Assembly: GCA_035515795.1 (NCBI GenBank)
Contig: DATJAY010000004.1
Span: forward strand, 1-64,000
Reading direction: 5' to 3'
Length of the DNA stretch: 64,000 nt
Source of the DNA: Candidatus Acidiferrales bacterium
Lineage (GTDB): Bacteria > Bacteroidota > Ignavibacteria > Kryptoniales > JAKASW01
Part shown: in pieces, positions 13,257-17,490 of the stretch
How the letters are laid out: every line of letters begins with the position of its first letter
How positions within the stretch are numbered: the stretch's first letter is position 1
Translations under genes and position numbers: made by a program
The notes under the pieces: model-generated
What the model saw: the letters and a program-made list of their open reading frames with translations, nothing else
What the model was told of the DNA's origin: nothing
Databases searched by the model: none

Positions 13257-13853
13257 ATGAAAATTGACACGGCGAAATTTGTGACCAGTGCTGTGGACTA
13301 CTCCCAAGTACCGGACACGGAATTACCGGAGATCGCATTTATCGGCAGGTCAAATGTCGGCAAGTCTTCCCTGATAAATAAGCTCTGCAATAAAAAGAAT
13401 CTTGCGCAGGCAAGTTCAACTCCCGGGAAAACACGTTCTTTGAATTTTTTCCTGATAAACGAGGAGCGTTACTTCGTTGATCTACCGGGGTACGGTTACG
13501 CTATTGCTCCTGAACATATGAAATCAAGCTGGGCGAAACTAGTCGAAACCTACCTTCAAGAGCGAAAGCAGTTAAAACTTGTAATCCAGATATTGGACGC
13601 GCGACACGAACCGATGGAGTTGGACAAGATAATGATAGGCTGGCTTGAATTCTACAAAATCCCCTACGTGATAGTCATGACAAAAGCTGACAAGCTTTCC
13701 CAGAACAAGATGAACACGCACATGGCCCGTGCAAAGGCCCAGCTGCCGAACCTGAGGCTCTGTCAGTGCTTCTTACCTTTCTCGGCAATCTCCGGACAGG
13801 GACGGCCCGAGCTTGTGAAACTCATAGATGACTTCTCGCAGTCGAAAGACTGA
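13257..13853 (+). CDS. engB: Ribosome biogenesis GTPase YsxC/EngB
   Basis: EngB is an essential small GTPase that acts in late 50S assembly. The G1 loop GRSNVGKSSLINKL, the G2 threonine in STPGKT, G3 DLPGYGYA and G4 TKADK are all present, giving a 198-residue protein of family length. It lies after its own leader, 155 bases from rplQ, and next to ribosomal genes, which suits its job. The gene on its far side is transcribed towards it, so the unit ends here. Confidence 0.97.
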   Translation: MKIDTAKFVTSAVDYSQVPDTELPEIAFIGRSNVGKSSLINKLCNKKNLAQASSTPGKTRSLNFFLINEERYFVDLPGYGYAIAPEHMKSSWAKLVETYLQERKQLKLVIQILDARHEPMELDKIMIGWLEFYKIPYVIVMTKADKLSQNKMNTHMARAKAQLPNLRLCQCFLPFSAISGQGRPELVKLIDDFSQSKD

Positions 13854-13958: not shown

Positions 13959-15116
13959 TCAGCCTCGTGAGCTCACTGCGGCTTTGTCTATCGCCATCAC
14001 TTTAGAAATCATCCATCCAACAACACCAAGCCCCGCAACGAACAGAAGAAGAAAAATTATCATCGGGCTCCACTGAGTGTTTACGGTCTCCGTTGTAATA
14101 TCCCGAAATCGAGATAGCTCTGTATTCTGCACCCACTGCCTGCTGATTGCATTCAATGTTATGACCACGAACTGCGCAAGTGCCGCAGTCGCTACCAAGC
14201 TCTTACTCGGCAGCAGATTCGATTTGACTCTCATGAACATCAGCAGCATAGCAAGCCATGGAGCACCGGGTGAAAGTGCGGTAAAGATGAAAAGAACAAT
14301 CACCGATGGAGAATTACCAACGCGAGTCAGTGTGAACTCATCCAGCGCGCCGAAAATGTACCAGCTTCCGGTAACGGCGAACCAAATCGCTGCAAAGGTG
14401 AAAATGCCGAAGGCAAATCGTATAGCCCACGCCTTGTATCCGCTCGACGTAGAATCTTTTCTGAAGTAAAAAGCATCGAACACAATGTAAACAGCCGTCG
14501 TCATCATCGCTATCCCGAACATCATCAGCCACCGGGGAAACAGGGTCGGATCGGAAATGTTCAAGGCCTGGCCCGTCACTGCTCCTGCCGCGTTCGTTCG
14601 TTCGAAGATTCTTGTCCACTCGTTTACATTTACCATCAAACTAAAGTTGTTGGCAAAAAGAAATCCGATAATTATGAAAAGGATCGAGCTTACCCACGCC
14701 GATGCGACAGCGAATTTCGTCTTCCTGTTATTTCGAACGTTGAGCGAGTAGACGTAGACGCCATAGTAAGCAAAGACCAGAAGGAAGATCACGCTCAGCC
14801 ACGGCCATCCTATTAAAACTCCGGCCGGATAGTAAAATTGATAATAGCTGACCTGTGTGAAGAGAAGAGGAACGATGCCGAGGTTGACACCCATTGCAAC
14901 GATTATCGGCATACTTCGAGAAAGACGATGGGAAAGCTCTTCTGCGTGATTTTTCCCGAACGTTCCAAAGACCGCGACGATCAACATCCCGGCATACCAG
15001 ATATTCATCGGGATCATGTGAAGAATAAATCCTAGGACTTTGAAGAAAGTTATGAACCAGAATGGTGCGGGGTTTCCGAGCGGTGAGGATGGCGCGATAA
15101 GATCTTGTGGATTCAT
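13959..15116 (-). CDS. Second membrane subunit of a cytochrome bd-superfamily complex
   Basis: The 385-residue product is an integral membrane protein with about nine hydrophobic segments. It lies downstream of the CydA-like gene and overlaps it by four bases (ATGA), so the two are co-translated. It does not look like classical CydB. The beginning FFKVLGFILHMIPMNIWYAG carries H33 in the first segment, and the protein has the size and layout of the second, CydA-derived subunit of the CydAA'/OR-N branch of the bd superfamily. That assignment is an inference. Which haems it binds cannot be decided from the sequence. No third subunit gene is next to it. Confidence 0.7.
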   Translation of the reverse strand: MNPQDLIAPSSPLGNPAPFWFITFFKVLGFILHMIPMNIWYAGMLIVAVFGTFGKNHAEELSHRLSRSMPIIVAMGVNLGIVPLLFTQVSYYQFYYPAGVLIGWPWLSVIFLLVFAYYGVYVYSLNVRNNRKTKFAVASAWVSSILFIIIGFLFANNFSLMVNVNEWTRIFERTNAAGAVTGQALNISDPTLFPRWLMMFGIAMMTTAVYIVFDAFYFRKDSTSSGYKAWAIRFAFGIFTFAAIWFAVTGSWYIFGALDEFTLTRVGNSPSVIVLFIFTALSPGAPWLAMLLMFMRVKSNLLPSKSLVATAALAQFVVITLNAISRQWVQNTELSRFRDITTETVNTQWSPMIIFLLLFVAGLGVVGWMISKVMAIDKAAVSSRG

Positions 15117-16543
15117 TTCCCAATACCTCCTCCCTTCATTTGGGTTATGTCGGATTTTGAACGAATTGTTTCTCCCGAAAATATCATCCCGCTCGGGGAG
15201 TTGAGGGATATGCTTTCAAGAAATTTTGTTAGCAATATAGCCTCCTCCCTAGTTCCGCACCATGGCGGCATAAAGTAATGTGCCTTGTCGAGGTGGGTCA
15301 CCACCGTATTGATCATGCTTTCACTCCAGCCGCGGGTGTATTCAGACACGCCCGAGAATCCTTTTTCCGAATGACAATCATTGCAATGATATTGGAAGAG
15401 GATTTTTCCAACCGCAAGTTGATCCGTTTCAGGCAACTGCAACAGTTTTGCACCATCTATATTTCCGTCCAAACCCATGACCTGCGGGTAGTGAGATCTA
15501 ACAAATGCTTTTGTCCAGACCCCGCCGTTAAGGTATCCGGTCGCCTGCAGCTTTGGTATCTCTGAAGTGAGGACGTTGTTTCCTACCACATAATTATAGA
15601 TGATGAAGGGTTTGCGCACACCTTCGCGGATGAACTCGCCGGTCGATGTGGCTGCTATTCCGATCGCAAAATATAGTATCGCAAATCCCGGATTGATCCA
15701 GCCCGGGTTCTTATGCGGGCCGAAGTACAGCATGAAGAAAACGACCGCCGAGGCTGCGAAGACGAGTGCGGTCAATACATTCAATGCGCTGGCGCCGGCG
15801 AGAGCTGCTTTACTGCTCGCAGGAAGGTTTATGTACCACCATGCTCCTCCGATCGTCACGAGCGCGGCTCCCACCATCGACCACGTAGCCGTTCTAGTTT
15901 CGACCAGAGATCGCAGATTTGAGTCGTTCTTCAATTTGAATGCCGCGTGCAAATAAATGTAGAGCGATGCCATCAGGAGGGAAGCTCCGCTTCTTGCGAC
16001 AATCTGAGGCAACGTTTGCGGATTAAAAAATGCTACCCACATTCCTTTGTCGGGAGTCCAGGTTCCGATGTCAAGTTGGAACGCCGTAATGCCGGTTATT
16101 ATCACGAGGCTCATATAGGCCGATACAGCATAGATCCAGCCTATGATCTTGTGCGTATGCGGGTCCAACTTTCCCCAGTAGTAGAAGAAAATAAATGCGG
16201 ACGAAATCTCGAGCACGAAGAAGACGTACTCCATCGCCCATCCGAAAACGAATATATGAATCAACGATTCCGTGGCGAGTGGAGAGGAGAGTCCAATTAT
16301 CCACCATATTCCGACCCCGGTTATTGCCCCGAAGACAACGGTGAGGAGGATAAAGAAAAACGTGTGTGATCTCAGGTAATCGAGAAGAGATTTGTTGTTT
16401 ATTTTGTAGGCGTGAGAAACCTCACCTGCTAATACTATTCCACCGCCAACGGCGTACAACGAGGTGAAAATATGGATCGTGGCGATTAAAGCGATGAGCA
16501 TTGGGGAGGTGAGGTATGGTACGTACCACCATGGATAATGCAT
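15113..16543 (-). CDS. CydA-like quinol oxidase subunit with C-terminal cytochrome c site
   Basis: The first about 320 residues align with CydA: H24 in ALIATIHIFTSLYAVGG matches the haem ligand His19 of E. coli CydA, PLATESLIHIF matches the PLAIEGLMAFF helix with its conserved Glu, NPQTLPQIVARSG matches the NPxxxPQ segment, and REGVRKPFIIYNYV matches the GRQPW region. Around residues 385-389 a CNDCH motif gives one covalent haem c site, followed by YFMPPW, a plausible Met ligand. The glutamate matching E. coli E107 appears to be absent. The usual Q-loop is not recognisable. The likely role is a quinol- or cytochrome-linked terminal oxidase in the inner membrane. Confidence 0.75.
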   Translation of the reverse strand: MHYPWWYVPYLTSPMLIALIATIHIFTSLYAVGGGIVLAGEVSHAYKINNKSLLDYLRSHTFFFILLTVVFGAITGVGIWWIIGLSSPLATESLIHIFVFGWAMEYVFFVLEISSAFIFFYYWGKLDPHTHKIIGWIYAVSAYMSLVIITGITAFQLDIGTWTPDKGMWVAFFNPQTLPQIVARSGASLLMASLYIYLHAAFKLKNDSNLRSLVETRTATWSMVGAALVTIGGAWWYINLPASSKAALAGASALNVLTALVFAASAVVFFMLYFGPHKNPGWINPGFAILYFAIGIAATSTGEFIREGVRKPFIIYNYVVGNNVLTSEIPKLQATGYLNGGVWTKAFVRSHYPQVMGLDGNIDGAKLLQLPETDQLAVGKILFQYHCNDCHSEKGFSGVSEYTRGWSESMINTVVTHLDKAHYFMPPWCGTREEAILLTKFLESISLNSPSGMIFSGETIRSKSDITQMKGGGIGK

Positions 16544-16851: not shown

Positions 16852-17490
16852 TTATAGCTGATTTCCCTCGAGTGACCTCTTGAAGATCACGAAGTTCAGG
16901 CCAAATGGAATCGGATGAGTATATTCGCCGGGTTTCAGTTTCTGAAGCACGTCTTGAACTTCATCTTCATACATGTGAATATCCACGGGCCCTAAATCTC
17001 CGCCATTTTGTGCTGAAGGGGAAGCGGAATATTTTTTAGCCAGAGACTCAAAACTATCTCCGGTCTGCAACGCAGCGTAGGCTGAATCGGCATCTGCCAT
17101 AGTGGTACACATGATTTCTGAAAGCTTCATCATTAGAGGCGGCGACGGGATGACATGAGCAAGTTGTGAAATCTTTAACTGGATCGGCTTCCCGTTAGCC
17201 ATAGCGGGTGAGTATCTCCATTGAAGAATGCACTTTACTGCCGCAGAATCCCATTGCGGATCGCCTGTAGAATTCTGAAGTTGTGCATAAAGGACTTTGC
17301 CTTCCTTGCTAATGAGCAGGTCCATTTTGAGATTGAAGTCAGATGATTTGAGAGCCGGTGGCGGAGAAGGAAGTGGAATCTTCTGGATCAACGTCGGCGG
17401 AGTGATTTCCGATCCCATTTGTCCGAATGTCGCGCAGCCGACATACAGAAATACTACGAGTCCCAGCGGAAGAACCTTTAACCCTGACAT
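16852..17490 (-). CDS. Lipoprotein with TonB-C-like and parvulin domains
   Basis: The 212-residue product begins MSGLKVLPLGLVVFLYVGC, a likely lipoprotein signal with C19, though the lipobox is imperfect. Residues about 45-110 look like a TonB/TolA C-terminal domain (KMDLLISKEGKVLYAQL, SAAVKCILQWRYSPAMANG). Residues about 130-208 look like a PpiC parvulin domain (DSFESLAKKYS, SPSAQNGGDLGPV, FGLNFVIFKR). This is an unusual pairing, suggesting a periplasmic foldase tethered to a membrane. AAAGGAG precedes the ATG. It is divergent from the rimP operon. Domain calls are from pattern only. Confidence 0.7.
   Translation of the reverse strand: MSGLKVLPLGLVVFLYVGCATFGQMGSEITPPTLIQKIPLPSPPPALKSSDFNLKMDLLISKEGKVLYAQLQNSTGDPQWDSAAVKCILQWRYSPAMANGKPIQLKISQLAHVIPSPPLMMKLSEIMCTTMADADSAYAALQTGDSFESLAKKYSASPSAQNGGDLGPVDIHMYEDEVQDVLQKLKPGEYTHPIPFGLNFVIFKRSLEGNQL

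Follow-up and report, generated by a model that had tools for sequence, protein, structure and literature searches.

A CydA-like protein with a fused haem c and a CydA-like partner: a cytochrome bd-superfamily pair most likely of the OR-C family

The window analysed here is a stretch of 64,000 nucleotides from contig DATJAY010000004.1 of a Candidatus Acidiferrales bacterium (assembly GCA_035515795.1; Bacteroidota, Kryptoniales), and it carries on its reverse strand two adjacent open reading frames, gene A (15113..16543, 476 amino acids) and gene B (13959..15116, 385 amino acids). The stop of A and the start of B overlap by 4 bp (15113..15116, reverse strand), which makes translational coupling likely, and the same arrangement occurs in close relatives, e.g., loci L002, L003, L004 and L005. 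The pair is flanked on one side by engB (YihA/YsxC, identified by family match; 13257-13853) and on the other by a gene at 16852-17490 with Pfam matches to TonB_C and PPIC rotamase, which probably encodes a lipoprotein with a TonB C-terminal domain joined to a PPIC rotamase domain; a related ORF lies upstream of A in close relatives. The wider neighbourhood contains what we take, from the ORFs, to be a ribosomal protein gene, rpoA, nusA and infB. Neighbour genes of the window also flank A-B in L003 and L229 and cluster with it in L002, L004, L005 and L015, and because the same neighbours surround the pair in close relatives, A-B is taken to be an old resident of the lineage. Promoter and terminator scans found no more than in shuffled sequences, and NCBIfam supplies no name for A or for B. 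The A protein is the sole PF01654 protein of its genome.

The A protein matches the Pfam family Cyt_bd_oxida_I (PF01654) over residues 16-231, with an E-value of 8.7e-9 that lies just above the cut-off. Its AlphaFold2 model (pLDDT 82) has eight transmembrane helices, and the best structural matches of the model are CydA chains (Z about 32), with a matched range of residues 5-324 that defines the CydA core (15572..16531, reverse strand). The core is followed by a predicted haem c domain at about residues 372-446 (15206..15430, reverse strand), delimited by a match to Cytochrome_CBB3 over residues 375-436 that falls below the cut-off and by model helices at 372-386, 408-416 and 432-445. This domain contains the haem c attachment motif C387-N-D-C-H391 (15371..15385, reverse strand) and, in an M-P-P motif, Met425 (15269..15271, reverse strand), the probable distal ligand of the haem.

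Relatives of A were collected in two ways. A genome scan with peptide patterns gave 66 loci, and since the patterns included the haem c motif this set is biased towards CXXCH; it covers Bacteroidota/Kryptoniota, Acidobacteriota, Chloroflexota, Planctomycetota, Zixibacteria, Armatimonadota, Bipolaricaulota, Fischerbacteria and Sumerlaeota. A second set was drawn through PF01654, whose main match is in the N-terminal core, which lowers the haem c bias, and here A-clade proteins were found in 19 of the 20 loci L200-L219 and in L188, all of them with CXXCH, the single exception among L200-L219 being L207, which is OR-N-like. The CXXCH motif and Met425 were invariant in 58/58 rows and then in 88/88 of the merged A-clade set, close and distant homologs alike, and CNDCH is therefore not a chance motif. 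A haem c motif lacking conservation in close homologs had been named in the initial annotation as a ground for refuting it, and on this count the annotation stands. Equally invariant (88/88) are His24, Trp102, Glu105, Glu112, Arg184, Glu303, Arg306, Glu307, Arg310, both cysteines and His391. At locus L224 (7940-10630; the same as L079, genome G283 of the same class), the A-clade protein has 896 amino acids, with B upstream, and its usual CXXCH is followed by seven more such motifs, with Cytochrome_C7/MtrC-like matches, so that a multihaem wire would here extend the bd-type core.

The active site was mapped on that of E. coli cytochrome bd-I, for which the excerpted text of PMC6853902 gives His186 and Met393 as ligands of haem b558, Glu445 as a ligand of b595 and Glu99 as axial to haem d. 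E. coli His19, Glu99 and Glu107 align with His24, Glu105 and Glu112 of A, and alignment of GWFVAEYGRQPW with GEFIREGVRKPF places Glu445 opposite Glu307 and Arg448 opposite Arg310. The initial annotation had recognised in A a member of the cytochrome bd superfamily with a fused haem c and a retained H24 ligand, all of which holds; it had further supposed that the equivalent of E. coli E107 was missing and the active site changed in consequence, and this part has to be withdrawn. Glutamate occupies the Glu112/Glu107 column in 16/16 quinol oxidase (qOR) rows and 56/56 A-clade rows, and the spacing from Glu105 to Glu112 is seven in the profile alignment, the same as in Geobacillus CydA. According to the same excerpts of PMC6853902, Leu101 in helix 3 of E. 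coli CydA is an insertion relative to Geobacillus, and the apparent loss of E107 is explained by the one-residue shift that this insertion causes. By these alignments, A retains both acids and the ligands of the high-spin haems, and it is the side of the low-spin haem b558 and of quinol that is lost.

On that side, E. coli His186 falls opposite Ala183 of A, a position that among the 88 relatives is Ala in 51, Leu in 13, Phe in 6, Ser in 5 and Val in 4. His199 was considered as an equivalent of His186 and rejected, as His186 lies opposite Ala183 and His199 is present in only 59/88. Across the A clade, neither a His nor a Met is invariant in the helix that corresponds to that of Met393, E. coli Arg9 is replaced by Pro14, and the place of the Q-loop is taken, in the model and the alignment, by a loop of 13 residues (239-251) that connects helices 6 and 7. 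A protein that works like canonical cytochrome bd, as a quinol:O2 oxidase with merely an extra haem c, would be expected to share the catalytic acids, high-spin ligands and fold (Z about 32) of CydA, as A does; the substitutions at His186 and Arg9, the missing Q-loop, a partner that is not CydB (see below) and the rejection of a tree in which A is forced to group with the quinol oxidases (p-AU 0.0084) make this reading quite improbable. Positive charges favour an outside N-terminus for A in 83/88 sequences, which would put the haem c domain outside as well, on the side where CydA has its Q-loop and b558.

The B protein has no significant Pfam or NCBIfam family, and a PDB sequence search returned no match. 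Profile comparison nevertheless related it to A at 97.5% and to CydA at 92.5%, versus 43.6% for CydB. Its AlphaFold2 model (pLDDT 92, nine transmembrane helices) likewise has CydA chains as best structural matches (Z 28.2, rmsd 4.2, 351 residues aligned). In the VIA-align comparison, membrane subunits of alternative complex III ranked well behind CydA (Z about 20 and 18), and their likeness to A and B was taken as a common helical-bundle arrangement. The helix-1 histidine (His33) of B is kept in 71 of 72 sequences, the A-B alignment shows no acids at the places of Glu99 and Glu107, and the Glu445 position is Gln in 50, Asp in 13 and His in 6 of the 72. Given the CydA-like profile and fold, the retained histidine, and the loss of the acids and of the Glu445 equivalent, B is a degenerate CydA paralogue, and it probably fills the structural place of CydB. 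Like A, it is predicted to have its N-terminus outside (69/72 by positive charges).

Co-occurrence of A and B is near-obligate. Among 63 contig loci, 51 have B next to A, and the 12 loci without an adjacent B comprise one fusion (L060), six that are truncated or interrupted close to the end of a contig (L019, L021, L024, L054, L059 and L062) and five from Planctomycetaceae, all five of whose genomes encode B elsewhere. Of the 10 genomes searched overall, 9 encode B elsewhere, and only in that of L024 was none found; outside the 63-locus set, L216 has no B within its 2.6 kb flank. The fusion at L060 (8001-10583) is a natural in-frame planctomycete A-B protein of 860 amino acids with a Pro/Ser-rich linker, in which the outside C-terminus of A is joined to the outside N-terminus of B, and this fits the predicted topology of both.

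The phylogenetic position of A was examined in a tree of 93 rows and 274 columns of the common core, which separated a qOR clade that includes E. coli CydA (16 rows, support 100/98), an OR-N-like clade (20 rows, 100/99) and an A clade (57 rows including one on a long branch, 100/98). The initial annotation placed the pair, with a partner other than classical CydB, in an OR-N/CydAA' branch. The partner was correctly described, ordinary CydAB is rejected by the AU test already given, and the CydAA' architecture of two associated superfamily paralogues fits A-B by profile, pairing and fusion; the OR-N assignment is the part that fell. The label OR-N-like is our own, given by features to proteins that we liken to the described Nitrospina, Nitrospira and Kuenenia bd-like oxidases. 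OR-N enzymes, described as CydAA' in the excerpts of PMC10839748 and PMC12342949, share with A-B a CydA-like catalytic subunit that lacks the Q-loop and possibly a CydA' partner, and the profiles of A and of the OR-N-like proteins are related (98.5%), as would be expected if A-B were a CydAA' enzyme of OR-N type, akin to those of Nitrospira/Nitrospina and altered in its active site. The OR-N-like proteins, however, have 10-17 predicted helices, lack CXXCH in 21/22 and mostly have separate adjacent cytochrome c genes, whereas A has eight helices, the invariant motif and Glu105 at the Glu99 position; they form a separate clade, and joining A to them was rejected (p-AU 0.0147, with 20 stand-in rows and no named references). 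We regard this reading of A-B as highly improbable. The OR-N-like clade (L180-L199) has Tyr at the Glu99 position in 20/20 tree rows and Glu or Asp at the Glu107 position; it is thus in that clade, and not in the clade of the window, that an acid is altered.

The names qOR, OR-C and OR-N are those of three published families, as given in excerpts of PMC13189123. The A protein has a fused haem c motif, with CXXCH and Met in 88/88, and its residue mapping fits a subunit without a quinol site in which the active-site haem ligands are kept. Murali, Gennis and Hemp (2021) reportedly defined OR-C by just such a CydA-like subunit, lacking the quinol site and carrying a covalent haem c; PMC7618691 gives the number of bd sequences in their alignments as 265. 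The A-B pair most likely belongs to OR-C, a name that, like OR-N above, is assigned here from features and from the reported definition. The window gene is then probably a member of a known, uncharacterised family, and what is new is the trading of the b558/quinol side for haem c, together with the operon with complex III described next.

Within the A clade, there is one subclade (support 99/91) in which the immediate neighbour of A encodes cytochrome b in 13 genomes. In all ten of these clusters fetched with longer flanks (L220-L223 and L230-L235) the genes run B, Rieske, cytochrome b and A along the same strand, and Pfam confirmed the Rieske protein, cytochrome b and A protein of L201. The nine cytochromes b examined all contain PEWY, which we take to be the quinol-oxidation motif. 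The bc-linked clusters show no gene for a separate cytochrome c1; the sole other CXXCH ORF (L234, 11624-12448) partly overlaps a larger ORF on the opposite strand and is probably not a gene. With no c1 gene in view, the most economical interpretation is that the haem c of A performs its task, and A probably stands in for cytochrome c1 in this sister clade. In the literature searched, which included few subscription papers, no bc operon with a haem-c CydA was found.

The window's own clade has A-B alone or near unrelated genes, with no bc linkage, and most A members lie outside bc operons; in L058, of the window's clade, a bc cluster lies some 6 kb upstream. In the own genome of the window, cytochrome b is encoded by two unlinked genes; there are also an alternative-complex-III-like cluster, after which comes a haem-copper oxidase cluster that looks A-type, and genes for cytochrome c assembly proteins. 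On contig C33 of this genome (L228, 13420-14829), the complex III-like and cox cluster ends with a gene for a protein of 469 amino acids for which eight helices are predicted and which has a monohaem cytochrome c domain at its C-terminus; it shares the outline of A and has no Pfam match to the CydA core.

A further A-like protein, at L227 (8309-9703; the same as L082, genome G001 of the same phylum), lacks CXXCH and has Phe in place of His24 and Gln in place of Glu105. Its gene follows a haem-copper oxidase cluster and has as neighbours the genes for cytochrome b, a B-like protein and a small cytochrome c encoded separately, and the protein is possibly a non-catalytic bd-like subunit of a bc complex. 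Since it has lost His24, Glu105 and haem c and stays beside bc genes, part of the fold family may serve a non-catalytic role. Extended to the family, this would mean that A-B is no oxidase and that it serves complex III in electron transfer or as a structural partner, its bd-like core being a relic, a reading with which the sister-clade operon of Rieske and cytochrome b also agrees; against it stand the invariance of the catalytic positions in all 88 other members, across about nine phyla, and the position of most A genes outside bc operons, and we consider it improbable.

We instead favour, with good confidence, A-B as a heterodimeric bd-superfamily O2 reductase fed by cytochrome c chemistry and not by quinol. 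What favours cytochrome c feeding is the combination of the invariant ligands with CXXCH and Met425, the loss of His186 and the Q-loop, the predicted topology, the A-B pairing, the bc operon and the cytochrome c assembly proteins. What counts against a c-fed oxidase is that the bc linkage is in the sister clade, that the bc and alternative complex III genes of the own genome are unlinked, that the haem c match is below the cut-off, that L216 shows no B within its flank and that the degenerate L227 protein keeps its place beside bc genes. In the proposed mechanism, a periplasmic donor would reduce the C-terminal haem c of A. For the relatives this donor would be the Rieske/cytochrome b complex of the same operon; for the window, to which a donor is carried over by analogy with the sister clade, it might be alternative complex III or one of the two unlinked cytochrome b complexes. 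From the periplasmic side, haem c would hand the electrons on to a pair of high-spin haems within the core of A, presumably held by His24 and by Glu307/Glu105, where O2 would be reduced with protons from the cytoplasm, and B would sit in the structural place of CydB. We infer the O2 substrate, the electron route, the haem types, the proton coupling and the physical association of A with B from these sequence and model features.

For the Bacteroidota/Acidobacteriota/planctomycete clade with the bc operon, a bolder proposal is that A, the CydA-haem c subunit, replaces c1 and is united with Rieske, cytochrome b and CydA' in one obligate bc-bd complex, which would oxidise quinol by a Q-cycle and reduce O2 with neither copper nor a mobile cytochrome c; we put this forward tentatively, as somewhat less probable than its negation. 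To our knowledge, those cytochrome bd enzymes that have been characterised oxidise quinol and so gain nothing from a Q-cycle. If true, a bd enzyme with covalent haem c in an operon with complex III would represent a second chain of complex III plus oxidase, copper-free, with a higher proton yield and possibly a high O2 affinity. Besides respiration, the surroundings of some A genes are suggestive, but only that, of a role in keeping O2 off oxygen-sensitive enzymes: a pyruvate:ferredoxin oxidoreductase gene lies upstream of A on the same strand in L009, L012, L032, L040, L057 and L061 (by Pfam for L012). In the same six loci, from two phyla, a dihydroorotate-dehydrogenase-like gene also lies upstream of A-B. 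Planctomycete RND efflux genes beside A-B (L031, by Pfam) offered no functional lead. A-B is widespread in uncultured lineages, and because the A protein of the window barely passes the Pfam cut-off and has no NCBIfam name, such genomes could be scored as having no bd oxidase or an ordinary one; the claim of a lost Glu107 is also corrected.

Among known systems, canonical CydAB (qOR; E. coli 6rko/6rx4 and Geobacillus 5doq) resembles A in the CydA fold and in the equivalents of His19, Glu99, Glu107 and Glu445, whereas A lacks the b558 ligand His186 and the Q-loop, has a haem c domain and a CydA-like partner, and falls in a separate clade. OR-C, the third family beside qOR and OR-N, is reportedly like A in its CydA-like subunit, absent quinol site and covalent haem c. 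For the bd-like oxidases of the Nitrospina, Nitrospira and Kuenenia types, 14 helices are described in the excerpted part of PMC3578206, and excerpts of PMC6606698 contain a proposal of a III-IV supercomplex with bd-like oxidases for Nitrospira moscoviensis, which concerns another family than that of A. As far as these excerpts go, the OR-N oxidases are like A-B in belonging to the bd superfamily and in being thought not to use quinol, theirs being clustered with c-type cytochromes, and are unlike A in their 14 helices, in having no fused haem c and, in the stand-in sequences, in the Tyr at Glu99. The actinobacterial bcc-aa3 system joins complex III to a haem-copper oxidase through a fixed haem c, and the structure entries 6hwh and 9qef are, we take it, supercomplexes of this kind. 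The bc-bd complex proposed here would share with it the linking of complex III to an oxidase by a fixed haem c, and would differ in that the oxidase is of the bd type.
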